From assembly GCF_016743335.1 (NCBI RefSeq), contig NZ_WCJE01000003.1, positions 1-64,000 on the forward strand: a stretch of 64,000 bases of DNA, in the 5' to 3' direction. Under the pieces are notes generated by a model. The model was not told the DNA's origin. It was given only the letters and a program-made list of their open reading frames with translations, and did not search any database. The stretch is from Streptococcus suis (GTDB lineage: Bacteria; Bacillota; Bacilli; Lactobacillales; Streptococcaceae). The stretch's first letter is position 1. Every line of letters starts with the position of its first letter. A program made the translations under genes and the position numbers. Below, one piece after another: positions 3,344 through 53,528 of this stretch.

Positions 3344-5803
3344 ATGTCGGAAAAAGTAAAGAATTTTTTCAAAAAACCAATGACCTTGATCACCATTCTC
3401 GGTGTTTCCTGTGTCCCAGCCTTATATAACATTAGTTTCCTAACCTCTATGTGGGACCCTTACGGCCGACTAGACCAGTTGCCTGTAGCAGTTGTCAATC
3501 AAGACCAGTCGGCGAGCTTTCAAGATAAAACCCTTACCATTGGTGATGATATGGTGGATAATATGAAAGAGAGCAAGAGCCTGGATTTCCATTTTGTATC
3601 AGAAAAAGATGCGGAAAAAGGTTTGGAAGAAGGGGACTATTACATGGTCATCACCCTACCAGAAGATTTATCGGAAAAAGCATCCAGTCTCTTGACGGAT
3701 CAGCCTGAGCCACTAACAATTTCTTACCAAACCTCTAAAGGTCACAGCTTTGTCGCTTCTAAGATGGGCGAATCAGCCATGGAAAAATTGAAAGCGTCTG
3801 TTTCAGAGACGATTACTGAAACATACACCTCGGCTGTTTTTGACAGCATGGGAGAGATTCAAAACGGCATGGTTAAGGCAGCAGATGGAAGTCAACAATT
3901 GACAGATGGAGCTAGTCAATTAGAAACCGGAAGTCAGACTCTATCATCAGGCTTATCTACCTTATCTTCATCAGGTCAATCACTGGTGACAGGAGCAAAC
4001 CAATTGGCTACTGGAGTTGTGTCTTATACAGATGGAGTCAATCAGGCTGCTTCAGGAAGTCAAACACTTTCCAGTGGCTTAACAACCTACACAAATGGGG
4101 TAGCGAGTCTTGCTTCAGGTGCAGAGCAATTAAATGCCAATTCCTCTCAGCTCATCGCTGGGGTGGGACAATTGCAAACAGGAGCAAGTCAGGTCGAACA
4201 ACTGGTAACAGGAGCCAATCAATTGCAGGCAGGCTTGGAGCAACTCGCTAGTTCAACTAGTTTGTCTGCTGAACAGTCTAGTCAGATACAGGCTTTATTG
4301 ACAGGGCTTCCTCAGTTGCAGGCGGCCATCAACCAATTAAATGATAGCCTCTCAAGTATCGGAGGACTTGCAGTAGATACCTCTACTCTATCTAGCCTCT
4401 TGACAGAGATGGGGGCTCAAGCTCAAGGATTGTTGACTGCAGCCCAAGCTGATAAAACAGCCAGCATTGAAGCCTTGCAAGCAACGGCTACCTATCAAAA
4501 CTTGACAGCTGATCAGCAAGCTGAATTGGTTGGTGCCCTTCAAAACTCACCTTCGACAACAATGACAGCAGCCCAAACGATTTTGGGCCAATTGTCTCAA
4601 CTGAGTCAAGCCTTATCAAGCTTACAAAGTCTTTCTGGCATGGCAACACAAATGAGCCAGCTGCAATCAGCTGTCGGTCAGATCAACACGGCTGCCAATC
4701 AAGCATTGCCAGGTGCTACAACAGCTATTGAAAACCTATCAAGTGGCTTGAGTCAGGTCAATACCGCCTTGAACCAGCAAGTTCTACCAGGAACTCAAGC
4801 CTTGACGAGTGGTGTGAGTCAACTTCAAACACAATTATCAAGTGGAGCTAGTCAGCTTATGTCAGGGGTGACAGCCTATACCGCAGGTGTTGCCCAATTA
4901 GCAGAGGGTGGAGCTCAGTTGGTTGCGAATAATAGTAGCATCCAATCAGGAGGTAGCCAGTTAACATCAGGATTGGCAACCTTGGCATCCAACTCCAGTC
5001 AACTTGTCAGCGGTTCAGGACAACTGGCTTCTGGTAGTCAGCAATTGATTGCTGGTGCGGATCAATTAGCTAGTGGCGGTCAAACCTTGACAAGCGGTAT
5101 TTCCAGTCTTCGTACAGGTAGTGAAACATTAACAAATTCACTCAGATCAGCCAGTCAACAACTATCAGTCATCTCTGTAGAAGACAAAAATGCACAAGCA
5201 GTTTCTCAACCAGTCACCTTGGAACACAGTGACCAAGATGATGTGAAGACCAACGGTGTCGGAATGGCTCCTTATATGGTATCTGTCGCACTAATGGTTG
5301 TAGCCTTATCAGCGAATGTTATTTTTGTCAAACACATTGATAATCGCTCCTACAAGAATCGTTGGGACTGGGCCAAAGGAAAACTCTTGCTCAATGGTAT
5401 TATTGCCAGTCTAGCAGCAGTGATTTTGTACGGTGTTCTTCGCTTGATTGGAATTGATCCGGCTCATCCAATGGCAACCTTGGGATTAATCCTTTTAGCC
5501 TCTTGGACCTTCATGGCCCTCGTTACAGCCCTGGTGGGATGGAACAATCGTTTCGGATCCTTTGCCAGTTTAATTCTCTTGTTACTACAGCTTGGCTCAA
5601 GTGCAGGTACCTATCCAATCGAACTTAGCCCACGCTTCTTCCAAGTCATTCAGCCTTATCTTCCAATGACCTATTCTGTTTCAGGTCTTCGTCAAACCAT
5701 TTCTATGGTTGGAAATAGTAGTCATCAAGTTTGGATGCTGAGCCTCTTCTTAGTAGGTTTTATGGGATTAGGTCTCATGATGTATCGACCGACAGAGGAC
5801 TAG
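3344..5803 (+). CDS. YhgE/Pip family membrane protein
   Basis: 819 residues. One N-terminal hydrophobic segment (about 15-35) is followed by an extracellular region and then, from about residue 175 to 600, a long array of GxxQLxxGxxxL-type repeats rich in Ser, Gly, Gln and Leu. About five membrane helices follow at the C terminus. This is the architecture of the phage infection protein (Pip) of Lactococcus, a phage receptor, and of YhgE in Bacillus. Ribosome site AAAGGAGG precedes the start. It is probably under the divergent TetR repressor. Its cellular role is unclear; ABC-2-like topology suggests export or envelope function. Confidence 0.88.
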   Translation: MSEKVKNFFKKPMTLITILGVSCVPALYNISFLTSMWDPYGRLDQLPVAVVNQDQSASFQDKTLTIGDDMVDNMKESKSLDFHFVSEKDAEKGLEEGDYYMVITLPEDLSEKASSLLTDQPEPLTISYQTSKGHSFVASKMGESAMEKLKASVSETITETYTSAVFDSMGEIQNGMVKAADGSQQLTDGASQLETGSQTLSSGLSTLSSSGQSLVTGANQLATGVVSYTDGVNQAASGSQTLSSGLTTYTNGVASLASGAEQLNANSSQLIAGVGQLQTGASQVEQLVTGANQLQAGLEQLASSTSLSAEQSSQIQALLTGLPQLQAAINQLNDSLSSIGGLAVDTSTLSSLLTEMGAQAQGLLTAAQADKTASIEALQATATYQNLTADQQAELVGALQNSPSTTMTAAQTILGQLSQLSQALSSLQSLSGMATQMSQLQSAVGQINTAANQALPGATTAIENLSSGLSQVNTALNQQVLPGTQALTSGVSQLQTQLSSGASQLMSGVTAYTAGVAQLAEGGAQLVANNSSIQSGGSQLTSGLATLASNSSQLVSGSGQLASGSQQLIAGADQLASGGQTLTSGISSLRTGSETLTNSLRSASQQLSVISVEDKNAQAVSQPVTLEHSDQDDVKTNGVGMAPYMVSVALMVVALSANVIFVKHIDNRSYKNRWDWAKGKLLLNGIIASLAAVILYGVLRLIGIDPAHPMATLGLILLASWTFMALVTALVGWNNRFGSFASLILLLLQLGSSAGTYPIELSPRFFQVIQPYLPMTYSVSGLRQTISMVGNSSHQVWMLSLFLVGFMGLGLMMYRPTED

Positions 5804-5818
5804 TTTCTTTTGGATAAT

Positions 5819-5852
5819 AGCAGAGCAGGTTTCCTGTTCTGTTATTTTTTGC
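5819..5852 (+). terminator. Rho-independent terminator after the YhgE gene
   Basis: Stem of AGCAGAGCAGG with CCTGTTCTGTT (one G-T pair), TTT loop, followed by a T-rich tract. Confidence 0.75.
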
Positions 5853-5870
5853 TTTTTTTTACATGTATCA

Positions 5871-5899
5871 TTTACAATGACAACAAAAAGGTGTACAAT
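5871..5899 (+). promoter_or_regulatory. Sigma-A promoter for the NatAB-like exporter
   Basis: TTTACA at 5871-5876 and TACAAT at 5894-5899, 17-bp spacer, 28 bp before the start codon at 5928. Confidence 0.7.
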
Positions 5900-5927
5900 A
5901 AAAGCAATCAATTCTAAGGAGGTTGAG

Positions 5928-6821
5928 ATGTTAGAAGTTCGTCACTTGTGCAAAAGTTACGGAAGCAAGGAAGTCTTGAAGGACATTTCCTTCACTATTC
6001 CGTCTGGAACCATTTGTGGTCTAGTCGGGAAAAATGGAGCAGGGAAAACCACCTTCTTCCATTCCTTACTCCGCTTTGTCACATACGAGGGTGAGATTAT
6101 CCTGGACCAGCAGGCAGTCACACCAGCTTTGTTCCAAAAAATCGGCTACCTGCCAGAAGAGCGAAGTCTGATGCCCAAGCTCAGCGTCTTTGAGCAGGTG
6201 CGGTATCTGGCTAGTCTTAAGGGGATGACCAGCAAGGAGGTGGCGGAAAAGCTGCCACTCTGGATGAAAAAACTTGAGGTCAAGGGCAAGATGACCGATA
6301 AGATCAAGAGTCTGTCCAAGGGGAATCAGCAGAAGGTGCAGTTGATTGTCACCCTGATTCATGAGCCAGACCTGATTATCCTGGACGAGCCTTTTTCTGG
6401 GCTGGATCCTGTCAATACGGCCTTGCTCAAGCGTGTGATTTTGGAGGAAAAGGAGCGGGGAGCGACCTTGATTTTCTCTGACCACGTTATGACCAATGTG
6501 GAGGAACTGTGCGATCAACTGCTGATGATTCAGGACGGACAGCTGGTGCTCAACGGAGGCATTCAGGAAATCCGTCGCCAGTTTGGTCGGACCCGCCTCT
6601 TTATCTCGTCCGACGTGGCACGGGAACGCCTGGAAGGTCTGCCCCATGTGCTGTCTGTTCAGATGACCAATCAGGACAAGTGGCGGTTGGTCTTGGACGA
6701 CGAAGCTGCTGGACCAGAACTCTTCCAGCTCATCAGCGGAGGAAGCTATCTGGCGACCTTTGACCAGCAAGCTCCGACAATCGATGAAATCTTCAAAATC
6801 AAATCGGGGGTGGCAGAATGA
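5928..6821 (+). CDS. ABC transporter ATP-binding protein, NatA-like
   Basis: 297-residue cytoplasmic ATPase. Walker A is GLVGKNGAGKTT near residue 35, the signature motif is LSKGNQQKVQ, and Walker B is LIILDEPFSGLDP. The start at 5928 (MLEVRHLCKSYG) is chosen because AAGGAGG lies 5-7 bases upstream, and the in-frame ATG at 5877 falls between the promoter elements. Its stop overlaps the start of the permease gene at 6818 by 4 bases (ATGA), so the two are translationally coupled. The C-terminal part after the ATPase core resembles that of NatA/YhaQ-type sodium or drug exporters; the substrate is not determined. Confidence 0.9.
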   Translation: MLEVRHLCKSYGSKEVLKDISFTIPSGTICGLVGKNGAGKTTFFHSLLRFVTYEGEIILDQQAVTPALFQKIGYLPEERSLMPKLSVFEQVRYLASLKGMTSKEVAEKLPLWMKKLEVKGKMTDKIKSLSKGNQQKVQLIVTLIHEPDLIILDEPFSGLDPVNTALLKRVILEEKERGATLIFSDHVMTNVEELCDQLLMIQDGQLVLNGGIQEIRRQFGRTRLFISSDVARERLEGLPHVLSVQMTNQDKWRLVLDDEAAGPELFQLISGGSYLATFDQQAPTIDEIFKIKSGVAE

Positions 6822-8026
6822 ACTCATTATTTCTAGTTGCGAAGGAAACCTATCTCCGTCAGGTCAAGTCTTGGTCCTTTGTCTTTATGGTCTTTGCTCC
6901 TTTTATTATGATTTTCTTTTCATTGGGAATCGGTTATCTGACGGGGTCTAGCATGGACCAAGGTGGTCAGGAGATTGCCCTGATTAGTCAAGAGGCGTCT
7001 GTTCAGTCGGCCTTTGAGGACTTGGACGGGCTAACCTCAGACTACACCGATGAAGAAGCAGCTAAAAAAGCTCTCGAGGACGAGGACTTGTTGGGCTATT
7101 TGATCGTAACCGTAAGCGACGGTCAGCTCTCAGCCGTTTATCATGGAAATGAACTGCCAAGTATAGAAACAGAAACGGCTATCCAGCAGACTCTGGCAGA
7201 GCTTCAGGACCAGTTGAACAAGGAAGATGCCCAGCTGACCAGTCAGCAAGAGGCGACACTGGCTCGCACCCCAGCTTATCAGGTCCAGTTGGTTGAGAAC
7301 AAGGGCTATGAGAAGATTGGGAAATTTATTCTCTTCTTTGCCTTGATTTTCCTCCTCTACGTTCTGACTATGATTTATGCTTCGACAACTGCTCAGGAAG
7401 TGGCCAGTGAGAAGGGGACCAAGATTATGGAGGTTATCTTCTCTAGTGTACCGGCTTCGACCTATTTCTACGGCCGGATTCTAGGGATTTTCATGGTCAT
7501 TGCCACTCACTTGGGCATCTATGCTCTTGGCGGTGTGGGCAGTTACCAGTTTGCCAGTCTAGCCCTGCTCACTATGCAGGACAATCCCATTGCTCAGGCT
7601 GTTTTGGGCGGATTTGACTGGTTTATTCTCTTTTTCTCCCTCTTTGGTCTGGTCCTGATTGTTGTCATTGCGGCCCTCTGTGGCTCCTTGGTGGTCCGTC
7701 AGGAAGATGTCAATAAGGCCGTCCAGCCAGTCATGTACCCTATTATTATTGGCTTTATCGGGGCAATGACCTTGGGTCAGCAGGCTCAGGAGTCTATCTT
7801 ACTCAAAATCGGCTCCTATGTGCCACTGTTATCGACCTTCTTCATGCCAATTCGTATCATCAACGGCTGGGCAAATGGTCTGGAAGCAGGGCTTTCCCTC
7901 CTTATCCTCATTGCCAGCACAGTAGCAGCGATCTACTTTATCGGAAAATCCTATGCGGGCTTGATTCTGCAAACAGATGATATCGGTCTTTGGAAAAGCT
8001 TGAAAAAAGGTCTATCTAGTAAATAA
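6818..8026 (+). CDS. ABC transporter permease, NatB-like
   Basis: 402 residues. The first membrane helix lies near residues 20-40. A large soluble extracellular domain follows (about 45-165), then five helices in the C-terminal half, the ABC-2/NatB topology with a big loop after helix 1. The motif VASEKGTKIMEVIFSSVP, typical of this permease family, follows the second helix. It overlaps the ATPase gene by 4 bases. Together they form an exporter; NatAB exports sodium in Bacillus, but related pairs handle other cations or peptides, so no substrate is assigned. Confidence 0.9.
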   Translation: MNSLFLVAKETYLRQVKSWSFVFMVFAPFIMIFFSLGIGYLTGSSMDQGGQEIALISQEASVQSAFEDLDGLTSDYTDEEAAKKALEDEDLLGYLIVTVSDGQLSAVYHGNELPSIETETAIQQTLAELQDQLNKEDAQLTSQQEATLARTPAYQVQLVENKGYEKIGKFILFFALIFLLYVLTMIYASTTAQEVASEKGTKIMEVIFSSVPASTYFYGRILGIFMVIATHLGIYALGGVGSYQFASLALLTMQDNPIAQAVLGGFDWFILFFSLFGLVLIVVIAALCGSLVVRQEDVNKAVQPVMYPIIIGFIGAMTLGQQAQESILLKIGSYVPLLSTFFMPIRIINGWANGLEAGLSLLILIASTVAAIYFIGKSYAGLILQTDDIGLWKSLKKGLSSK

Positions 8027-8032
8027 ATGAAG

Positions 8033-8064
8033 AAACCAGCCTAGGAAACTAAGCTGGTTTTATC
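8033..8064. terminator. Terminator shared by convergent operons
   Basis: AAACCAGC at 8033-8040 pairs with GCTGGTTT at 8053-8060. It sits between the rightward natAB-like pair and the leftward DUF4097 gene. Confidence 0.7.
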
Positions 8065-8068
8065 ATTC

Positions 8069-9127
8069 TTATTTTGGTGTCCCTAAATTGATTGTCGCAT
8101 TGGTGGCTTCAATGGTCAGTTTGTTCTTGCTACCTTTGTTTTCTAGGGTTAGGGTCTGTAGATCGTTTTCTGTCTTGACAGGGTATTTGGTGTACTTATC
8201 GCTAGTGAAAATACCGACTTCCCCTAGTCGCTCTTTTAAGTAAGGGTCTTGGTTAACCATCTCTCCCAAATCATTCCCATCTTCATAGTAGTAACCTTGG
8301 GCTTCTACTAATTTTTTCTTGTCGATTTGGTTGGTGATGAGCAAGTTGCTATCTGCCAGACTCTTATCCGTCACATCCAAAAATGTTGTAGAAGAATAGG
8401 TGTCGGACGGGGTGAAGCGATTGTCGTCAAGAAGGGTCACTTGCTTGCTATCCAGTTGGCTATAGCCCTCGATGGTCACATTTTCCAAACTGGTTTCAGA
8501 TAAGCGGATGCTACTTTCGTGGAGGTCGATGTGCATATCTTTTAGAGTGGATTGTGTCGCTTGGAAGTAGCCTGCTTCGATCTGGCCGCTGTCAATGGTC
8601 ACCTTGTCGAGATCGACACCACCAGACAGATTTGCCTCTTTGATATGGATATTCTCAATCGTGAAACCGCCAAAATCATAGAAGTGGAGATTGTGTCCCT
8701 CTAATTTATCCAGTGTCTTCCCTTTAGGCACTTCAATGGTGACGGAGAAGACATTGATACGACGTTGGGCCAACCTTTCTCCAAGATACTGCATAATTCC
8801 TTCGATAGCAAAAGATTCTTGTTGTGAAGAAAGGGTCAAAGTGCCCTCTTTTTCTGCTAGTTTTAAGGGGGATTGCATATTGTTGTCGGAGTTGGCATAG
8901 GTCACATGGTAGTTGCTATCGCTAGACTCCTTGATATAGACGCTGTGGGGGATAAAGTCAATTTTAATGGTATTCAAATCTGTGAAGGTCTTATGAACTT
9001 CCGTCGGAGCAGCAACCTCTTCCAAGCGGGTTACGCCTCCTGTGAAAAATCCAATGCCAGCTAGAATTAAGCCTGCAATCAGGCTGACAAAGCCGAAAAT
9101 AATGGCCATGGTTAGTTTCTTTTTCAT
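8069..9127 (-). CDS. DUF4097 family beta-strand repeat protein
   Basis: 352 residues. An N-terminal membrane anchor (about 7-29, IIFGFVSLIAGLILAGIGFF) is followed by a long soluble region of short alternating beta-strands (for example LDKLEGHNLHFYDFGGFTIENIHIKEANLSGG is spread over about 140-170), as in the putative adhesin/DUF4097 family. It is the last gene of the PadR operon and overlaps the DUF1700 gene by 4 bases (ATGA). Such padR-DUF1700-DUF4097 operons are widespread in Firmicutes and are usually linked to envelope stress, but no biochemical role is established. Confidence 0.85.
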   Translation of the reverse strand: MKKKLTMAIIFGFVSLIAGLILAGIGFFTGGVTRLEEVAAPTEVHKTFTDLNTIKIDFIPHSVYIKESSDSNYHVTYANSDNNMQSPLKLAEKEGTLTLSSQQESFAIEGIMQYLGERLAQRRINVFSVTIEVPKGKTLDKLEGHNLHFYDFGGFTIENIHIKEANLSGGVDLDKVTIDSGQIEAGYFQATQSTLKDMHIDLHESSIRLSETSLENVTIEGYSQLDSKQVTLLDDNRFTPSDTYSSTTFLDVTDKSLADSNLLITNQIDKKKLVEAQGYYYEDGNDLGEMVNQDPYLKERLGEVGIFTSDKYTKYPVKTENDLQTLTLENKGSKNKLTIEATNATINLGTPK

Positions 9128-9879
9128 GCTCGTTTACCTCGTTTCAAGATCCATTTGAAGCAAGCCTTGACCAAGCGCCAAGACCAGTAGGCAAAAAATC
9201 CAGTCAAGATGTAGATGAGAATAGCTCCGCCAATCAAAGACAAACCTGAGCCAAAGCCCATAAGGAAGATGTTGAATCCTTCTGACATGAGGCTAAAGGC
9301 TTCCCAAATCAGATAGCCACCGCTAGTGAGAAGTCCGACACCCAAAGCAAAAGCTCCGACAATGAGGGCCAAGATGAGCGCCACCAATCCCAATAGACTA
9401 GCTAGGAGAATGAGCAAAAGTGGAATGGCGATAGGCAGGGAAATGACAGCTAGGATAGCCAACCATAGCGTTCGTTTTGTTTGGCTAAAATTACGGAAGT
9501 AGCGACCGAGGAAAAAGGCGCCGAGGATAAGAGTCGCAAACAGAGGAATGACTCCGATAAACTCTCCCATGATAAAGAGTAGGAAGAAAGAGAAGAGACC
9601 TGTCATACTTAAGGCTCCCAGACCAACCCAGAGTTTCCAGTTGAGTTGAACAGGTTCTTGTTGATCCTTCTCCTCCTGGATTTGCTTGTTGAGCATGTTG
9701 TTAATGAGTTCGCTGGCAGCTTCTTTTGGTGAACCAAGTTCTTCTATAATTTCTGTTTCACGCTCTGGTCCAGCCTCGTCAAAATACTCATTAAAGAAGC
9801 TGATGGCTTCAAAGTATTCTTTGTGGGGCAGTTTTTTGAGATATTTTTCTAACTGCTCCATGTACTCAGTTCTTGTCAT
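9124..9879 (-). CDS. DUF1700 (HAAS-domain) membrane protein
   Basis: 251 residues. The N-terminal 60 or so residues form a soluble HAAS-like helical domain (MTRTEYMEQLEKYLKKLP, then YFDEAGPERETEIIEELGSP spread over about 31-50). About five hydrophobic segments follow between residues 80 and 240, including a very regular Leu/Ile/Ala-rich stretch. GGGAG lies 8 bases upstream of the start. It overlaps the padR gene by 14 bases and the DUF4097 gene by 4, so all three are translated together. It is likely a membrane partner of the DUF4097 protein; function unknown. Confidence 0.87.
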   Translation of the reverse strand: MTRTEYMEQLEKYLKKLPHKEYFEAISFFNEYFDEAGPERETEIIEELGSPKEAASELINNMLNKQIQEEKDQQEPVQLNWKLWVGLGALSMTGLFSFFLLFIMGEFIGVIPLFATLILGAFFLGRYFRNFSQTKRTLWLAILAVISLPIAIPLLLILLASLLGLVALILALIVGAFALGVGLLTSGGYLIWEAFSLMSEGFNIFLMGFGSGLSLIGGAILIYILTGFFAYWSWRLVKACFKWILKRGKRA

Positions 9880-44252: not shown

Positions 44253-44258
44253 ATGATG

Positions 44259-45815
44259 ATGTCAGAGCAAGCACAAAGACAGGAACTTCACCGGAAAATA
44301 TGGGCGATTGCAGATAAGGTACGAGGAGCAGTAGATGGTTGGGATTTCAAACAGTACGTCTTGGGAATTCTGTTCTACCGTTTTATCAGTGAGAATTTTA
44401 AAAATTACATCGAGGGTGGAGATCCAGATGTAGATTATGCTAATTTTCCAGAGGGGCAGATTACAGATGTCATCAAGGATGATGCAGTCAAAACCAAGGG
44501 ATATTTTATCTATCCGTCGCAGTTATTTTCAAATGTGGTGAAACAGGCTAGAGGTAACGAAAATCTCAACACGGAGTTGAGGAAGATTTTTGATGCCATT
44601 GAGGATAGTGCGATTGGCTATGACAGTGAGCATGATATCAAGGGCCTCTTTGATGACGTTGACACGCGGAGTAACCGTCTGGGCAATTCTGTTGCGGAAA
44701 GAAATCAGCGTTTGGTGGATATTTTAGAAGAGATTGCTAATCTTGATTTTGGGGATTTCGAGGATAACAAAATCGACCTTTTTGGTGATGCCTATGAGTT
44801 CTTGATTTCAAACTATGCCTCGAATGCTGGTAAGTCAGGCGGGGAATTTTTTACCCCTCAAAGCGTGTCCAAGTTGCTGGCTAAGATTGTCATGCTGGGA
44901 AAAGACGAGAAAAACAAGATTAACAAAATTTACGATCCTGCATGTGGATCGGGATCGCTCTTGCTTCAAGCTAAGAAACAGTTTACTGAACATATCATCG
45001 AGGATGGTTTTTATGGACAGGAAATTAATATGACCACTTATAACCTGGCTCGTATGAACATGTTCCTTCACAACATCAACTATGATAAATTTAGCATTGA
45101 GCGTGGCAATACCCTGCTAGATCCCAAACACGGCAACGATAAACCCTTTGATGCCATCGTATCAAATCCTCCTTACTCCATCAAGTGGATTGGCAGCGAT
45201 GATCCAACCTTAATCAATGATGATCGCTTTGCACCAGCTGGGATTTTGGCTCCAAAGTCCAAGGCTGACTTTGCCTTCATCATGCACAGTCTTTCCTATC
45301 TTTCGTCAAAAGGCAGAGCAGCCATCGTGACCTTCCCTGGTATTTTTTATCGTGGAGGTGCAGAGCAAAAAATCCGGAAGTACCTAGTGGATGGAAACTT
45401 TGTTGAGGCTGTCATTCAGCTACCGGACAATCTTTTTTTTGGTACCTCTATTGCTACCTGTATTCTCGTTTTGGCTAAAAATAAGAATACGACAGATACA
45501 CTCTTTATAGATGCCAGTCGGGAATTTAAAAAAGAAACCAATAATAACATCTTAACCGAAGACAATATCCAGAATATTTTAGATGGATTTGACAAGGGAG
45601 AAGATAAGGAATATTTTGTTTCAGTTGCATCACATGAGAAGATTGTCGAAAATGATTACAACCTGTCTGTTTCGACCTATGTAGAAAAGGAAGATACGCG
45701 AGAGAAGATTGACATCGTTCAGTTGAACAAAGATATCGCTGAAACTGTGAAGAATATTGACCGTCTACGTGCTGAGATTGACAAGATTGTGGAGGAGTTG
45801 AGTCATGACCAATGA
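44259..45815 (+). CDS. hsdM: Type I restriction-modification methyltransferase HsdM
   Basis: 518 residues from 44259. The N-terminal helical domain ([20 protein letters not shown] at about 10-29) contacts HsdS. The SAM-binding N6-adenine methyltransferase core shows [14 protein letters not shown], the AdoMet motif [11 protein letters not shown] and the catalytic NPPY at about 303-306. It methylates adenine in the sequence chosen by HsdS. Three ATG codons stand in a row (44253, 44256, 44259); the last is best spaced from GAGG. It overlaps the rhuM-like gene by 11 bases. Confidence 0.95.
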
Positions 45816-46812
45816 TATCATCATCTACACAACAGATGACGGCAAGGCGTCAATCGAACTTCATCTGGACAATGGAACAGTCTGGCTGACCCAGTTGGAG
45901 TTGGCGGAACTTTTTCAGACTTCCAAGCAGAATATCAGCAAGCATATTAAGGCTATTTTTGAGGATGGCGAACTTGATGAAAAAGTGGTTGTCAACTATC
46001 AGTTGACAACCACTCAACACGGGGCAATGGCAGGAAAAACCCAGAGCCGAAAGACTGCTTACTACAACCTGGATATGATACTGGCTATCGGCTATCGGGT
46101 ACGGTCACCTCGTGGAGTACAATTTCGGAACTACGCTTCAACTGTTTTAAAAGAGTACTTGATCAAAGGCTTTGCTATGGACGATGACCGTTTGAAAAAT
46201 TTGGGCGGCGGGTCTTATTTCAAGGAACTCCTTGACCGCATTCGAGATATTCGTTCAAGCGAAAAAGTGTTTTATCGTCAGATTTTAGACTTGTTTGCGA
46301 CCTCAAGTGACTATAATGCAAGAAGTAGTGAAGCCCAGCAATTTTTTGCAACGGTGCAAAATAAGTTGCATTATGCCATTCATCACCATACCGCAAGCGA
46401 ACTGATTTACACTAGAGTAGATAGTGAGAAAGAATTTATGGGCTTGACGACCTTCAAGGGTGAATTGCCAACCTTTTCGGAGGCTACGGTTGCCAAAAAT
46501 TATCTGACCGAGCAAGAGTTACAAGGTCTCAATCAGTTGGTATCGGGGTATTTGGACTTTGCCGAGAGGCAGGCCCAGCGTCAGATTGTCATGACCATGG
46601 CGGACTGGATCCAGCACGTGGATCGGATTTTACTGGCAACGGGTGAGGACCTCCTGACCCATGCAGGAACTATATCCCGCGAGCAGATGACGGAAAAAGT
46701 CAGTCAAGAGTACCGAAAATATAAAGCCAAGACCCTCAGTCAAGTTGAAAAAGACTACCTAGCCCACCTCAAACACCTAGAAAAAACAGCTCAAGAGGGG
46801 GAGAAAAAATGA
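45805..46812 (+). CDS. RhuM family protein
   Basis: 335 residues. Family features: [20 protein letters not shown] at the start, then [22 protein letters not shown] (a helix-turn-helix-like segment, about 28-49), and [23 protein letters not shown] (about 81-103), the RhuM hallmark. The C terminus is helical and lysine-rich. RhuM was named from a Salmonella pathogenicity island, and homologues often sit in type I restriction loci, as here between hsdM and hsdS. Its action is not established; a DNA-binding or regulatory role is plausible. Confidence 0.9.
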
Positions 46813-46952
46813 CAAAAATAGAAGAAATGTTGGCTGACCTCTGCCCTAATGGCTCAAACAGTCAGGGGAGTGACTGTTTGAGGTGGGAAATAAGGCAAAG
46901 TCATAACTTTGCCTCCTTGCAACGACAAAGTGGGCGAATGAAAGGATGCTAG
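46809..46952 (+). pseudogene. 5' remnant of an hsdS gene with hairpin insert
   Basis: A 47-codon reading frame overlapping the end of the rhuM-like gene (ATGA). It begins [15 protein letters not shown], the same opening as the full HsdS downstream (MNQIEKMLQDYCPNG), then loses similarity. The divergent part contains two perfect inverted repeats: CTCAAACAGTCA (46853-46864, arm partner 46871-46882) and AGGCAAAGT (46893-46901, partner 46906-46914). It ends one base before the next hsdS start. It is either a decayed duplicate start or a translated leader that couples hsdS to the genes before it. Confidence 0.65.
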
Positions 46953-46953
46953 T

Positions 46954-48141
46954 ATGAACCAAATCGAAAAGATGCTACAAGATTACTGTCCAAATGGAGT
47001 TGAGTGGAAAGAGTTGGGGGATAGAGAGGTTGCAAAACTTTCTCGTGGGAAAGTGATGTCTAAACAGTTTTTAGAAGAAAATAAAGGCGTGTTTCCAGTT
47101 TATTCCTCCCAAACTGCAAACAGTGGCGAGATTGGTAAAATTTCAACATTTGATTTTGATGGCGAATACATAACATGGACAACTGATGGTGCAAATGCTG
47201 GTACAGTATTTTATCGTCAAGGAAAATTTAGTATCACTAATGTTTGTGGTTTAGTAGATATACAAAATGATAAATTACTTACTAAGTTTGTTTATTATTA
47301 TTTAACAATTACAACTAAAAAATACGTGTCTTCAGGTATGGGAAATCCGAAACTGATGTCAAATGTCATGGCGAAAATCAAAATCCCTATCCCCCCGCTA
47401 GAAATTCAGGAAGAAATTGTGAAAATACTTGACAAATTCACTGAATATGTTACAGAATTGACCGCAGAATTGACCGCAGAATTGACCCTCCGACAGAAGC
47501 AATATAATTATTTTAGAGATTATTTATTGAACTTTGATAGTGATAGTTCGGGGGGGGCGAACAATAAAGTTTATCAGGTTGAGTGGAAGACGCTGGGGGA
47601 TATTGCAAAATTGAAAAATGGAAAAGATTGGAAAAGTCTTTCTGTTGGTGATGTTCCGGTCTATGGTAGTGGTGGTGCGATGGGAGAGTTCGTCTCAGAA
47701 TATGCGTATAATAAACCGACTGTCTTAATTCCCAGAAAAGGGTCGATATCTAATCTATTTTATCTCGAAAAACCTTTTTGGAATGTTGATACGATTTACT
47801 ATACTGAAATTGATGACAGTCAGGTTGTGCCAAGATATTTATATTATTACTTAACTACCATTGATTTGGAGAGTATGGCAACAAATCCAACAAGACCAAG
47901 TTTGACCCAAGCTATTCTGGATAAAATCCCCATCCCCGTTCCTTCTCTCCCTATCCAACAACGCATCGTCCAAGTTCTTGATAACTTCGATGCAGTTTGT
48001 AACGACCTTAATATCGGACTGCCCAAGGAGATTGAGTTACGCCAAAAACAGTATGAATATTTTAGAGAAAAACTCTTGACATTCACCGCCGAAGGCGTGT
48101 ACACTGACAGTACAGTACAGTACAGTACAGACAAGACCTGA
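46954..48141 (+). CDS. hsdS: Type I restriction specificity subunit HsdS (two recognition domains)
   Basis: 395 residues with the order target domain 1 (about 15-145), conserved helix 1 (IPPLEIQEEIVKILDKF to LRQKQYNYFRDYLL), target domain 2 (about 205-330) and conserved helix 2 (IPIQQRIVQVLDNF to LRQKQYEYFREKLL in part). It directs HsdM and HsdR to a split DNA sequence. The spacer helix contains TELTAELTAELT, encoded by 12-bp repeats at about 47452-47487. The last 11 residues are encoded by and after a 5-bp repeat tract (48107-48130) and look like frame-shifted tail. Loss of one repeat unit would fuse it to the fragment at 48183. Confidence 0.92.
   Translation: MNQIEKMLQDYCPNGVEWKELGDREVAKLSRGKVMSKQFLEENKGVFPVYSSQTANSGEIGKISTFDFDGEYITWTTDGANAGTVFYRQGKFSITNVCGLVDIQNDKLLTKFVYYYLTITTKKYVSSGMGNPKLMSNVMAKIKIPIPPLEIQEEIVKILDKFTEYVTELTAELTAELTLRQKQYNYFRDYLLNFDSDSSGGANNKVYQVEWKTLGDIAKLKNGKDWKSLSVGDVPVYGSGGAMGEFVSEYAYNKPTVLIPRKGSISNLFYLEKPFWNVDTIYYTEIDDSQVVPRYLYYYLTTIDLESMATNPTRPSLTQAILDKIPIPVPSLPIQQRIVQVLDNFDAVCNDLNIGLPKEIELRQKQYEYFREKLLTFTAEGVYTDSTVQYSTDKT
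47452..47487 (+). repeat. 12-bp tandem repeat coding for TAEL spacer units
   Basis: ACCGCAGAATTG occurs twice, preceded by the related ACAGAATTG and followed by ACC. It lies in the central conserved region of HsdS, where EcoR124I and EcoDXXI differ by the number of such TAEL units and thereby in the spacing of the recognised half sites. Confidence 0.85.
48107..48130 (+). repeat. Pentanucleotide repeat tract (ACAGT)4.8
   Basis: Four complete ACAGT units plus ACAG. It lies in the last codons of the 395-residue HsdS. Removing 5 bp joins frame 1 to the open frame that runs through the fragment at 48183-48767; adding 5 bp leads to TAG shortly after. Confidence 0.9.
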
Positions 48142-48182
48142 TTAGGCTCTTAAACTGGGTCTTTGGTCCGATACGGGGAGAG

Positions 48183-48767
48183 TTGGGGGCAATTTGCACC
48201 TTTACTCGTGGAAATGGCCTTCAGAAGAAAGATTTTACAGAAGAGGGTTACCCCGTTATTCATTACGGACAGATTTACACTCGCTATGGCTTTTCGACGG
48301 ATAAGACAATCTCTTTCACTGACCAAAGCGTCTTTGCTAAATTAAAGAAAGCTCAGCCGGGTGACATTGTCATGGCAACGACTTCTGAGAATGTCGAAGA
48401 TGTTGGAAAAGCAGTCGTATGGGAAGGAAATGAAGAAGTAGGGATTGGAGGTCACTCTTGTGCTTTACAAACTGAGCAATCGTCAAAATTTCTGGTCTAT
48501 TATTTTCAATCCAATGATTTTCAACGACAAAAAGAAAAAATGGTTGTTGGGACGAAAGTAATTGAGTTGTATCCTAAAAATATACAGAAGATGCTTATCG
48601 TCTTACCATCTTTTTCAACTCAAAAACGCATCGTTGCTATCCTCGACAAATTTGATGAGTTGACGACCTCGATTTCTCACGGTTTGCCAAAGGAAATTGA
48701 GTTGCGTCAGAAGCAGTATCAGTATTTTAGAGATACCTTGCTCAATTTTCCCAACAAATACGAATAA
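48183..48767 (+). CDS. Orphan HsdS fragment: one recognition domain plus conserved helix
   Basis: 194 residues from a TTG, without the HsdS N terminus. It has a target recognition domain (LGAICTFTRGNGLQKKDFTE to about residue 125) and the conserved C-terminal helix (KRIVAILDKFDELTTSISHG, then LPKEIELRQKQYQYFRDTLL). The open frame extends upstream without stop to 48132, right beside the repeat tract. No convincing ribosome site is present, so it is probably translated only when fused to HsdS. The helix DNA is similar to that in the upstream hsdS (about 48018-48080), giving a substrate for domain swapping. Confidence 0.8.
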   Translation: MGAICTFTRGNGLQKKDFTEEGYPVIHYGQIYTRYGFSTDKTISFTDQSVFAKLKKAQPGDIVMATTSENVEDVGKAVVWEGNEEVGIGGHSCALQTEQSSKFLVYYFQSNDFQRQKEKMVVGTKVIELYPKNIQKMLIVLPSFSTQKRIVAILDKFDELTTSISHGLPKEIELRQKQYQYFRDTLLNFPNKYE

Positions 48768-48907: not shown

Positions 48908-49246
48908 ATGCAAATCCAATATAATAATAGAACAGTTGAAAAGCAGTGTACAAATTTGAGGATAGCAAAGAAAGACTTTTCAGATAAGGTTGCCAAGAAG
49001 TTGCACAAGTTGGTCAATTTTATTGAGAGTGCTGACAATCTCGCTTCCGTAATCGCATTTCCGACGTATCATTTTCATGATTTAAAAGGAGATAGAGAGG
49101 GAGAATATGCTCTGGATATTGACGGTCGTAGAGGTTCTTACAGATTAATCGTCTGCTTTGATGAGGAGAAAGATACTGTATTTTCCAATGCCCAGAGTAT
49201 TAGAATAATTCAAATTGAGGAGGTAAGTAATCATTATGGTTCATAA
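48908..49246 (+). CDS. higB: HigB/RelE-family toxin
   Basis: 112 residues of the plasmid maintenance killer (HigB) type. Features are NNRTVEKQCTNLRIAKKDF, then AFPTYHFHDLKGDREGEYAL (about 51-70) and RGSYRLIVCFDEE (about 74-86), the RelE-fold core that cleaves mRNA in the ribosome in studied members. AAAGGAAATTGA precedes the start. It overlaps the antitoxin gene by 11 bases; toxin-first order is typical of higBA. It lies within the restriction locus with its own promoter and operator. Confidence 0.85.
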   Translation: MQIQYNNRTVEKQCTNLRIAKKDFSDKVAKKLHKLVNFIESADNLASVIAFPTYHFHDLKGDREGEYALDIDGRRGSYRLIVCFDEEKDTVFSNAQSIRIIQIEEVSNHYGS

Positions 49247-50327
49247 CATTCAAAACTATAAAGATTTAATCGCTTTCCATCCAGGTTCTTATGTTGAAGA
49301 GATAATAGAAGACTTAAATATGTCCCAAGAAGAGTTTGCGATTCGTTTAGGGACAACCCCAAAAACAATCAGTAAATTGGTAAATGGTGAAATTTCAGTC
49401 AGTAAGGATCTTGCTAATAAACTATTTAAATTAACAGGGGTATCAATTCTTACTTGGTTAAATCTTCAAGCGAGCTATGATGCAAAGGTTCTTGAAATAG
49501 AGGAACTTCAAAATCAAGATGAAAAAGAGATTTTGAAGTTGATTGATTTTGATTATTTCAAAAGACACGGCTTTGTTCCACCGGGAAGGTATAGCTTGCT
49601 ACAAAAAGTGGCTGAGTTGAGAAAGCTTTTTCAAATTTCAAATCTTACATATCTGAGTCAGTTCAATCAGCTTGTTAGTTATCGAAATACAAAAGGTTTT
49701 GATGAGCGTTCGGTGGTAAATTCAAATGTTATGCTTGAGTTGGCTATAAAATTATCAAAAGATGCAACTGACACAAAGTTTAATAAGTCAAAATTAGTAA
49801 AAATACTACCAGAACTACGAGAGATGACCTTGAAAGATGGTGGAGAATTTTACCCGATGTTACATTCAAAATTATTGGAATGTGGTATTTGTTTGGTCGG
49901 ACTTCCAAAATTAAAAAATGCCAATCTGAATGGTGCGACCAAGCGATTTAAAAATGGTAGTGTATTATTGTTGTTAACTGATAAAAATAAGCGTTCAGAT
50001 ATTTTTTGGTTCTCATTTTTCCATGAATTAGGTCATATTTTACATAATGATTTTTACTCGGATTATGATGATAGGGATGCTTATGAAGAAAAAGAGCAAA
50101 AAGCGGATCAATTTGCTCAAGAATTTCTTATTCCTACGAACGAATATGAACAGTTTGTAGCAGAAAAATCTTTTGATAAATCATCCATCATTCGTTTTGC
50201 TCATGAAATCGGTATCCATCCAAGTATTGTTTTGGGAAGACTCCAAAAAGAAGGATTTGTAGAATACAGTCAGTATCAAGAGCTAAAAATTAGTTACAAT
50301 ATCATTATCAGAGGAAATGCGGTATAA
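49236..50327 (+). CDS. higA: HigA-like HTH antitoxin fused to ImmA/IrrE metallopeptidase domain
   Basis: 363 residues. The N-terminal HTH_XRE domain of the HigA type (HPGSYVEEIIEDLNMSQEEF, then LGTTPKTISKLVNGEISVS, about 38-56) should bind the toxin and the operator at 48860-48882. A helical linker follows. The C-terminal domain carries the zinc motif HELGH in FWFSFFHELGHILH (about 265-278) and a downstream Glu-rich KEQKADQFAQEF, as in ImmA/IrrE proteases. The peptidase may cleave the antitoxin part or another repressor under stress; that is inference. GAGGTAAG precedes the start. Confidence 0.87.
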   Translation: MVHNIQNYKDLIAFHPGSYVEEIIEDLNMSQEEFAIRLGTTPKTISKLVNGEISVSKDLANKLFKLTGVSILTWLNLQASYDAKVLEIEELQNQDEKEILKLIDFDYFKRHGFVPPGRYSLLQKVAELRKLFQISNLTYLSQFNQLVSYRNTKGFDERSVVNSNVMLELAIKLSKDATDTKFNKSKLVKILPELREMTLKDGGEFYPMLHSKLLECGICLVGLPKLKNANLNGATKRFKNGSVLLLLTDKNKRSDIFWFSFFHELGHILHNDFYSDYDDRDAYEEKEQKADQFAQEFLIPTNEYEQFVAEKSFDKSSIIRFAHEIGIHPSIVLGRLQKEGFVEYSQYQELKISYNIIIRGNAV

Positions 50328-50429: not shown

Positions 50430-53400
50430 ATGACTGATATTATTCAAACAGACCCGATTATCGAATCCAATAACTTCATCGTTTTGGACAAGTATGTGAA
50501 ATCAGTGCAGCCAGGTCATTATCAGACAGAAGCTGATTTGGAGAAGGAGCTGATTGCGGATTTGCAGCAGCAAGGCTATGAGTATCTGAACTATTTGACC
50601 ACTCCTGAAGCATTGCTGGGAAATCTTCGGACGCAGATGGAAACGCTCAATCGTGTCAGCTTTACAGACGCAGAGTGGCAACGGTTTTTGGATGAGTATT
50701 TGAATAAACCAAGCGAGAGCTTGATTGATCGGACGCGTAAGCTTCATGATGATCATGTCTATGACTTTATTTTTGATGACGGGCATATTCAAAATATCTA
50801 CCTGTGGGATAAGAAGAACATCAGTCGAAATAAATTGCAGGTCATTAACCAGATGAAACAGACGGGAACGAGTGCCAATCGGTACGACGTGACCCTCCTG
50901 GTCAATGGGTTGCCTCTGGTTCAGATTGAGTTGAAAAAACGCGGAGTTGCCATTCGGGAGGCTTTTAACCAAGTTCATCGCTACAGTAAGGAAAGTTTTA
51001 ACGAAGAAAATTCTCTCTTCAAGTACCTGCAACTCTTTATTATTTCAAATGGGACAGACACCCGCTACTTTGCCAACACGACCAAGCGGAACAAGAATTC
51101 CTTTGATTTCACTATGAATTGGGCCTTGAAGAACAATAATCCGATCAAGGATTTGAAGGATTTCACAGCAACTTTCTTGAGTAAGCAGACCTTGTTAAAT
51201 GTCTTGATAAACTATTCCGTTTTTGATACCAGTGATACCCTGCTAATCATGCGTCCTTATCAGATTGCGGCGACTGAGAGGATTATCTGGAAAATTCGCT
51301 CTGCTATTGCTTCAAAAATCAAGAGTGGGCCAGAAACAGGTGGCTATATTTGGCATACGACTGGATCTGGAAAGACCTTGACTAGTTTTAAGGCGGCACG
51401 CTTGGCGACAGAGATGGACGAAGTGGACAAGGTCTTTTTCGTAGTTGACCGCAAGGATTTGGATTATCAGACCATGAAGGAGTACCAGCGGTTCTCGCCT
51501 GATTCGGTTAATGGATCCAACAGTACTGCAGGGCTCAAGCGAAATATTGAAAAAGATGACAATAAAATTGTGGTGACCACCATTCAAAAACTCAATCATT
51601 TCATGACAAGTGAGCAGGAGCACGAAATCTATGACAAGCAAGTGGTTTTCATCTTTGATGAGTGCCATCGCTCGCAGTTTGGTGAGGCTCAAAAACGCCT
51701 GAAGAAAAAATTTAAGAAGTATTGTCAGTTCGGATTTACAGGAACACCGATTAAGGTGGAGAATGCTTTAGGTGCAGAAACCACTGCCTCCGTCTTTGGA
51801 AAAGAGCTCCATTCTTACGTGATTACGGATGCCATACGGGACCAGAAGGTCTTGAAATTCATGGTGGATTACAATGATGTCCGTCCACAATTCAAGGCCT
51901 ATGAAACAGAGCAGGATTTGGAAAAGTTGAGTGCTGCTGAGACCAAGAAAGCTCTTTTGCACCCAACTCGAATTTCAGAGATTTCCAGTTATATCTTGGA
52001 GCATTTCAATCAAAAAACACACCGACAATCTGGAAAAGGCTTTAATGCTATGTTTGCCGTTTCGAGTGTTGAAGCTGCCAAAGCCTATTACCAGGAATTG
52101 CAGGAGCAGCAAGTCGGACGAGAAAAGCCACTAAAAATTGCGACGATCTTCTCTTTTGCAGCTAATGAGGCCCAGGTTGCGATTGGAGAAATTGATGATG
52201 AGAATTTTACACCGAACGACCTACCCGACCTCAGTAGTAAAGAGTTTTTAAGTCGCTGTGTAGAGGATTATAACCGACTGTTTCAGACTAACTACACCAT
52301 CAACGGCAATGATTTCCAGAATTATTACCGTGACTTAGCCAAACGCGTGAAGACGGGTGAAGTCGATTTATTGATTGTAGTGGGAATGTTCTTGACAGGT
52401 TTTGATGCTCCTACTTTGAATACCTTGTTTGTGGATAAAAACCTGCGTTATCATGGACTAATTCAAGCCTTTTCACGAACCAATCGGATTTATGATGCGA
52501 CCAAGTCCTTTGGTAATATTGTGACTTTCCGAGATTTGGAGAAAGCGACGACAGATGCTATCAAGCTCTTTGGAAAAACGGAAACAGCAGAGGTCTTGTT
52601 GGAACGCTCCTACACAGACTACTTGGAGGGTTACGACGATGCTGGTGAGCAGAAAGCCGGCTATTTGGCTGTTGCCCAGGAGCTCCTAGAGCGTTTTCCA
52701 GATCCAAGTGAGATTGTTAAAGAAAGTGATAAGAAGGCCTTTGTAGACTTATTCGGGAAGTTTTTGAAGCTGGATAATATTCTCCAGAACTACGATGACT
52801 TTGTGCGTTTACAAGCCGTTCAGATGCTTGATTTTGAAAATCCTGAGGAAGTAGCTACTTTTCAAGCCAAATACCAGATGGATACTGAAATCATGGAAGA
52901 ACTGGCTCAGCTTCCTATACCGACAGTTCGGGAAATTCAGGATTATCGTTCTGCCTACAATGACATTAGAGATTGGTATACCCATGAACGCCAAAATCAG
53001 CAAGACAGCAAATCGAAGGTAGATTGGGACTCAGTAGTCTTTGAGGTCGAATTGCTGAAATCACAAGAAATCAACCTAGACTATATCTTGGAGTTGATTT
53101 TTGAAACCAATAAAACAGTATCGGATAAGGACACTTTGGTAGAAGAAATCACACGGACCATTCGTGCCAGTCTTGGTAATCGAGCTAAGGAAGATCTGAT
53201 TGTGAAGTTTATTCACCGAAGTGATTTGGATAGTTTTGTGGATAAGACGGACATTATCGAAAAATTCTTCCTCTTTGCACGGGAGGAACAGAAAAAAGAA
53301 GTTGCCGAGCTTATTCAGCAAGAAGGCTTGAATGAAGAGAGTGCCAAGCGGTATATTCAACTTTCTTTGAGGAGGGAATATGCCAGCGAAAATGGGAATG

Positions 53401-53528
53401 CCCTCAATGAAACCTTGCCGAAGATGAGCCCCCTAAATCCTCAGTATCATACGAAGAAGCAGACTGTTTTCCAAAAAATTAGTGCCTTGGTTGAAAAATT
53501 TAAGGGGATTGGTGGAAGTATTGACTAA
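50430..53528 (+). CDS. hsdR: Type I restriction endonuclease HsdR
   Basis: 1032-residue motor and nuclease subunit. The N-terminal PD-(D/E)xK nuclease has D153 (YDVTLL) and E167-K169 (QIELKKRG). The SF2 translocase follows, with Walker [12 protein letters not shown] at about 314, the DEAD-type [10 protein letters not shown] at about 410 and a later QAFSRTNR motif VI. The C-terminal helical region binds HsdM. With HsdM and HsdS it translocates and cuts unmethylated DNA. AAGGAGCAACC precedes the start. It is separated from hsdS by the toxin-antitoxin pair but has its own promoter. Confidence 0.95.

Follow-up and report, generated by a model that had tools for sequence, protein, structure and literature searches.

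A pentanucleotide tract as a probable switch between two and three target recognition domains in a type IC-like HsdS of Streptococcus suis

The window refers to the whole stretch analysed, i.e. 64 kb from the start of contig 34 in a Streptococcus suis assembly (2.45 Mb, 110 contigs; GC content of the window, 40%). The gene considered here, hsdS (46954..48141; + strand, as are all features given below), encodes a type IC-like specificity subunit of 395 aa, HsdS, with two target recognition domains (TRDs); PF01420 is found in two stretches and a profile match to the EcoR124 S subunit was obtained. TRD1 and the first conserved region lie at 47002..47487, TRD2 and the second conserved region at 47581..48036 (PF01420 match for each). 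A perfect 24-nt array, (ACAGT)4.8, is found near the C-terminus of HsdS (48107..48130; Tandem Repeats Finder, TRF). It is followed by a conserved linker, DLIRLLNWVFGPIRGELG (48135..48188), that leads from the tract to a third TRD with its own conserved region (TRD3; 48183..48767; PF01420 match). In the window, TRD3 belongs to an orphan open reading frame (ORF) of 194 aa counted from a TTG codon.

The first-pass annotation had proposed that this tract, which it placed at the end of a 395-residue HsdS, could switch the protein between two and three recognition domains, and the tract and its frames are as it described. hsdS was translated with tract copy numbers (n) of 1-9. The window has n=4 and is closed: translation stops at the TGA of positions 48139-48141, as it does for n=1 and n=7. 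Copy numbers of 2, 5 and 8 lead to the TAG of positions 48143-48145, including the predicted stop after gain of one unit (n=5). Copy numbers of 3, 6 and 9 lead through the linker into TRD3, giving proteins of 602, 607 and 612 aa, respectively; loss of one unit or gain of two does open the frame into the orphan domain. Both stop codons lie within 15 nt 3′ of the tract, in the two other frames of the linker, and overlap its codons CTG ATT AGG. The domain assigned to position 48183 is indeed a Pfam Methylase_S domain (PF01420); the TRD3 frame is open for 219 aa from stop to stop and thus begins within the tract, not only at TTG 48183.

The array is the sole perfect one of the 64-kb window with a unit of 2-7 bases, at least 3 copies and at least 15 nt; the remaining TRF arrays are imperfect or shorter. 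(ACAGT)3 was found nowhere else in the genome assembly. No array of at least 4 pentanucleotide copies was found in 60 × 64 kb of order-1 random sequence of matched composition.

The tract is probably a slipped-strand phase-variation switch between TRD2 and an optional TRD3 of a type IC HsdS, the three-TRD form adding or changing a motif. When n is not a multiple of 3 (as in the window), a normal two-TRD HsdS would be made, specifying one bipartite motif for methylation and restriction. When n is a multiple of 3, HsdS would continue through the conserved linker into TRD3, and this longer subunit would most likely allow HsdM and HsdR to act with TRD3 paired with another TRD, leading either to an added motif or to a different one.

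Streptococcal genomes (284, each from a different species) were searched for the junction. (ACAGT) arrays of at least 3 copies were found in six, and all six loci correspond to this hsdS junction. BLAST with the junction gave matches in 47 genomes, 42 of which have both the linker and a tandem array; the five others have neither linker nor tract (G220, G183) or match over the conserved region only (G014, G103, G197). The junction anchors require the DNA encoding Trp-Val/Ile-Phe-Gly in the linker or close variants of it, so that junctions with a very different linker would escape. The close junction relatives of the window belong to the same genus. A pattern search in named genomes gave 17 stretches: nine chance matches and eight that are this junction, in S. 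cuniculipharyngis, S. gallolyticus, S. massiliensis, S. hyointestinalis, S. sobrinus, S. oralis, S. uberis and S. vicugnae.

Four units are found at the 42 junctions: AGAGT (20 loci, 2.8-6.8 copies), ACAGT (16 loci, 2.8-7.2 copies), ACAGTGG (5 loci, 2.3-4.3 copies) and AACGG (1 locus, 21.8 copies). None has a length divisible by 3. The gap lengths are distributed over the three frames (17, 13 and 12 loci); the frame continues into TRD3 at 16 junctions and is closed at the other 26. The AGAGT repeat itself reads TAG, so that the only open tract of this class is the shortest, with 2.8 copies. Perfect arrays with units of 4-8 bases and at least 3 copies number 20 at the junction versus one elsewhere in the same loci (156 kb). 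Several features of a gene controlled by a simple sequence repeat (SSR) are found together: a unit whose length is not a multiple of 3 within the frame and alternative products, with a tract length that varies between species while the flanks are intact. A single repeat number common to all relatives is ruled out between species, as copies and unit both differ, and the phase-variation reading of the first-pass annotation is supported.

A similar layout is found outside the genus. Among 395 genomes of the order, the linker query gave 13 matches, 11 in the same genus and two in another family (two of the 76 genomes of that family). These two loci carry (ACAGC)18, open, and (GCCT)8, closed. In Fusobacterium vincentii SB055, (AAGC)34 is closed and an intact third TRD lies behind the array. 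The TRD3 module has a strong match in 17 of 398 genomes drawn across the phylum (Bacillota), including that of the window. Two of the 16 other loci combine linker motif and array: one has (GAAC)12, open, with an HsdS of 649 aa, the other a GACA array at the edge of the locus, apparently a contig end. Neither linker motif nor array was found in the remaining 14. Judged by these matches, the same layout with different repeats is present in many related bacteria and in a few unrelated ones. Long arrays with differing units at one domain junction would be hard to explain other than by slippage that has been kept. A phage or plasmid origin of hsdS was considered and rejected: no near match to the hsdS of the window was found in phages, and 76 plasmid records gave only distant matches, none covering 80%. 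In viral contigs, one search gave a single pattern match, which is not an hsdS junction, and another gave none.

The TRD3 ORF is intact in 41 of the 42 streptococcal loci. Ratios of nonsynonymous to synonymous substitution rates (dN/dS) were calculated within TRD3 clusters for the 63 of 258 pairs with 0.02<dS<1.5; the pairs are not independent, and L069 (TRD3 of 137 aa, run of N) was excluded. The medians are 0.132 for closed-closed pairs (20), 0.14 for open-open pairs (15) and 0.147 for mixed pairs (28). By this measure, TRD3 is under purifying selection, in open and closed states alike. Each of the three large TRD3 clusters includes both states (open: 5 of 19, 7 of 12 and 1 of 7 loci). The closest pair of TRD3 (L050 and L061, 99.5% nucleotide identity), both closed, differs in tract length (3.8 versus 6.8 copies).

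The TRD repertoire differs between positions. Clustering omits 5 of the 126 TRDs; subsequent removal of L036_1, L069_1 (wrongly split) and L069_3 (short) changed the counts from 17 clusters in 39 loci, 13 in 40 and 7 in 42 for TRD1, TRD2 and TRD3 to 15 in 37, 13 in 40 and 6 in 41, respectively. Random draws from the TRD pool gave 18.7 clusters on average, and none of 10,000 draws gave as few as 6. At the third position of loci L031-L072, three main TRD types cover 38 of 41 loci, TRD1 and TRD2 being very diverse. TRD types common to several positions are found in 4 of 32 clusters.

The reading frames, the conserved architecture, the variation of units and copies at one junction, the selection on TRD3 and the homology to type IC components directly support a probable switch between two and three TRDs, and the comparative sequence evidence that the switch is genuine is strong. 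We infer that slippage is reversible within a strain and that it affects specificity. A working three-TRD HsdS that methylates two motifs has been published (JHP1422 of Helicobacter pylori), which makes an added or changed specificity the likeliest effect.

Several points weigh against this interpretation. Fewer than 3 copies are found at 22 of the 42 junctions, which may switch rarely; the 4.8 copies of the window are also a short tract, at which slippage is probably slow. One genome per species was sampled, and the differences in tract length were seen between species. The narrow TRD3 repertoire is not predicted by a pure specificity switch. AlphaFold2 models are of low confidence (predicted local distance difference test, pLDDT: 58 for the TRD2-TRD3 piece of L028, 68 for the HsdS of the window) and leave the packing of TRD3 unseen; they weakly suggest an unstructured tail where the tract is translated (residues 378-395) and a helical linker. 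Lastly, the precedent is inexact because TRD2 and TRD3 are identical in JHP1422, unlike those of the window, which belong to different clusters. The linker had also been considered as a copy of the N-terminal leader of HsdS; this was dropped (mean local score 14.53 versus 14.15 ± 0.68 for shuffled sequences).

The tract could alternatively act as an ON/OFF switch, the three-TRD fusion being inactive or misassembled, so that slippage would silence the methyltransferase (or the reverse) rather than change its specificity. The far narrower repertoire of TRD3 compared with TRD1 and TRD2 is what would be expected if its DNA specificity mattered less. This explanation is nevertheless unlikely: purifying selection acts on TRD3 in open and closed loci, the largest TRD3 type is also found at positions 1 and 2 and so resembles a working TRD type, and H. 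pylori has an active three-TRD HsdS (PMC3936762).

It is equally conceivable, at a low probability, that cells with a closed tract also produce TRD3 on its own as a half-HsdS, through reinitiation or an internal start, and that this product pairs with itself or with the main subunit; both states would then use TRD3. Truncated type IC S subunits do function as homodimers (PMC3874165), TRD3 alone works in JHP1422 (PMC3936762), and the near-universal integrity of the TRD3 ORF would be consistent with such a product. The earliest start codon in the TRD3 frame of the window is however TTG 48183, and no clear ribosome-binding site at a suitable spacing was seen by eye.

It is very improbable that TRD3 is a silent donor half-gene, kept to recombine with TRD1 or TRD2 by domain movement, and that the tract is a by-product. 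Domain movement in hsdS has been published (PMC3077401), conserved region 2 is 81% identical to conserved region 3 over 54 bp, and some TRD types are, as given above, common to several positions. Under this reading, neither tandem units of 4, 5 or 7 bases at a single site across several lineages nor the 16 open fusions among 42 loci would be predicted; moreover, TRD3 types barely mix with the TRD1 and TRD2 pools, six of the seven clusters with TRD3 members being TRD3-only. Inversion of hsdS (SpnIII type) was rejected: the seven inverted pairs found in 44.0-50.5 kb (21-29 nt, 72-81% complementary) do not flank TRDs, and no second inverted hsdS was found among the ORFs of 40-56 kb. Neither ordinary decay by frameshift nor a sequencing error in the tract is at all likely, for although the assembly is in 110 contigs and homopolymers and repeats are error-prone, the architecture is common to 42 streptococcal genomes, with TRD3 intact and constrained.

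Two other tracts, absent from the first-pass annotation, are found in the hsdS of the window. The first is a run of eight G (G8) in the TRD1-TRD2 linker (47550..47557). Translation with G7 or G9 in its place ends HsdS after TRD1 (219 or 204 aa, respectively). Runs of at least seven G are found in this linker in 5 of the 42 loci: G8 in three, all in frame, and G7 and G9 in one each, both out of frame at the run with TRD1 and TRD2 otherwise open. A sixth locus has an interrupted G run. Like the ACAGT tract, the G8 run is probably a switch, the second in this gene. L042 (1-3171) combines an open ACAGT tract with a G7 run that ends hsdS after TRD1; TRD2, linker and TRD3 are left as an open frame of 408 codons, which could give a different two-TRD subunit if provided with a start. 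The second tract is a 12-bp repeat encoding TAEL (47453..47487; 2.9 copies; TRF) in the central conserved helix. The copy number of this TAEL-like repeat, in the central helix, varies among related loci.

A broader proposal, made tentatively and with rather less than even confidence, is a three-TRD chain in which each junction carries a frameshift tract (G8, ACAGT) and a TAEL repeat tunes the spacer. One gene could then give one-, two- or three-TRD subunits with several spacings. The third module would be a distinct accessory TRD, joined by a conserved linker of its own and limited in repertoire, distributed from Streptococcus to Fusobacterium, in which units of 4, 5 and 7 bases have been swapped while the switch was kept.

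The surrounding genes are those of a type I cluster. hsdM (44253..45815; 520 aa; N6_Mtase, HsdM_N) is separated from hsdS by a RhuM-family gene within the operon (45805..46812; PF13310). Two small genes lie between hsdS and hsdR (48908..50327), one encoding 112 aa without Pfam match, the other a protein of 363 aa with a helix-turn-helix and an M78 peptidase domain. hsdR (50430..53528; 1032 aa; EcoR124_C, HSDR_N) is of the EcoR124 type. A profile of the HsdS of the window and six related ones matched the EcoR124 S subunit (7bst) with an E value of 1.2e-66 over profile positions 13-383 of 399. The locus has the characteristics of the EcoR124I group, i.e. an operon-like arrangement of hsdM, hsdS and hsdR with an HsdR of the EcoR124 type, near full-length S homology and TAEL-type repeats; on these sequence features it is a type IC restriction-modification cluster.

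Other HsdS fragments were seen. Directly 5′ of hsdS, positions 46809-46953 carry a remnant of another HsdS N-terminus, as if the start of hsdS had been duplicated or deleted. L085 has a RhuM-like N-terminus fused to an HsdS fragment (by eye). The genome of the window includes a second type I-like locus (L128; C1:15000-27000), with an ORF of 1073 codons, an HsdS of 401 aa, an ORF of 226 codons and a separate half-size HsdS of 185 codons; an ORF of 534 codons resembling hsdM and a possible integrase on the opposite strand were recognized by eye. No tandem array was found in the 12 kb of L128, and no inverted repeat of at least 25 nt in its positions 5500-9500.

Repeats in type I genes are well known: SSRs are reported in almost 10% of type I systems (PMC7394358) and in 7.9% of hsdS (PMC10073500). 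A REBASE survey (Atack et al., FASEB J 2020) is cited for type I genes predicted to be phase-variable through simple repeats (in PMC7394358) and for HsdS subunits with three TRDs (in PMC12429846). Among the matches listed, titles and abstract openings do not describe a repeat that toggles a third TRD; Atack et al. 2020 lies outside that comparison. SSR-variable hsdS and three-TRD HsdS have both been published. If the proposed switch is real, the number of DNA-reading domains, and hence the restriction barrier and the methylation pattern, could be changed without recombination. The role of the third TRD is directly testable, since alleles of one TRD3 type occur naturally in both states, as in L067 and L068, which differ in TRD1 and TRD2.

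Four published systems share parts of this layout. In Staphylococcus xylosus, the hsdRSMS locus includes hsdS_short, which proper methylation in E. coli requires (PMC10030836). In description its product resembles TRD3, being an S protein of half size that varies little and accompanies an ordinary variable HsdS; hsdS_short is a separate gene before hsdM, and no repeat switch is reported in the available portion of the paper. In EcoR124I and EcoR124II, 12-bp TAEL repeats change the spacer length (PMC3874165). The TAEL 12-mers of the window likewise lie in the conserved helical region after TRD1; such a repeat stays in frame and tunes spacing, not TRD number, unlike what is predicted for the ACAGT tract.

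JHP1422, the S subunit of M.Hpy99XV, is a three-TRD HsdS that methylates two motifs in E. coli, and its TRD1+TRD3 and TRD2+TRD3 constructs give different motifs (PMC3936762). Three TRDs are found in one open frame in 16 of the 42 related loci, the window itself being presently closed with two TRDs; in the portion of that paper available, no tract is described as controlling the third TRD of JHP1422. NgoAV of Neisseria gonorrhoeae is also type IC (PMC3874165), and a poly-G tract in its hsdS changes specificity (PMC9577141). In both NgoAV and the window, a tract within hsdS would set the number of TRDs, and the G8 of the window, with G7 or G9 in relatives, also lies in the TRD1-TRD2 linker. The G run of NgoAV switches between one and two TRDs, whereas the ACAGT tract is predicted to switch between two and three, at the second junction.
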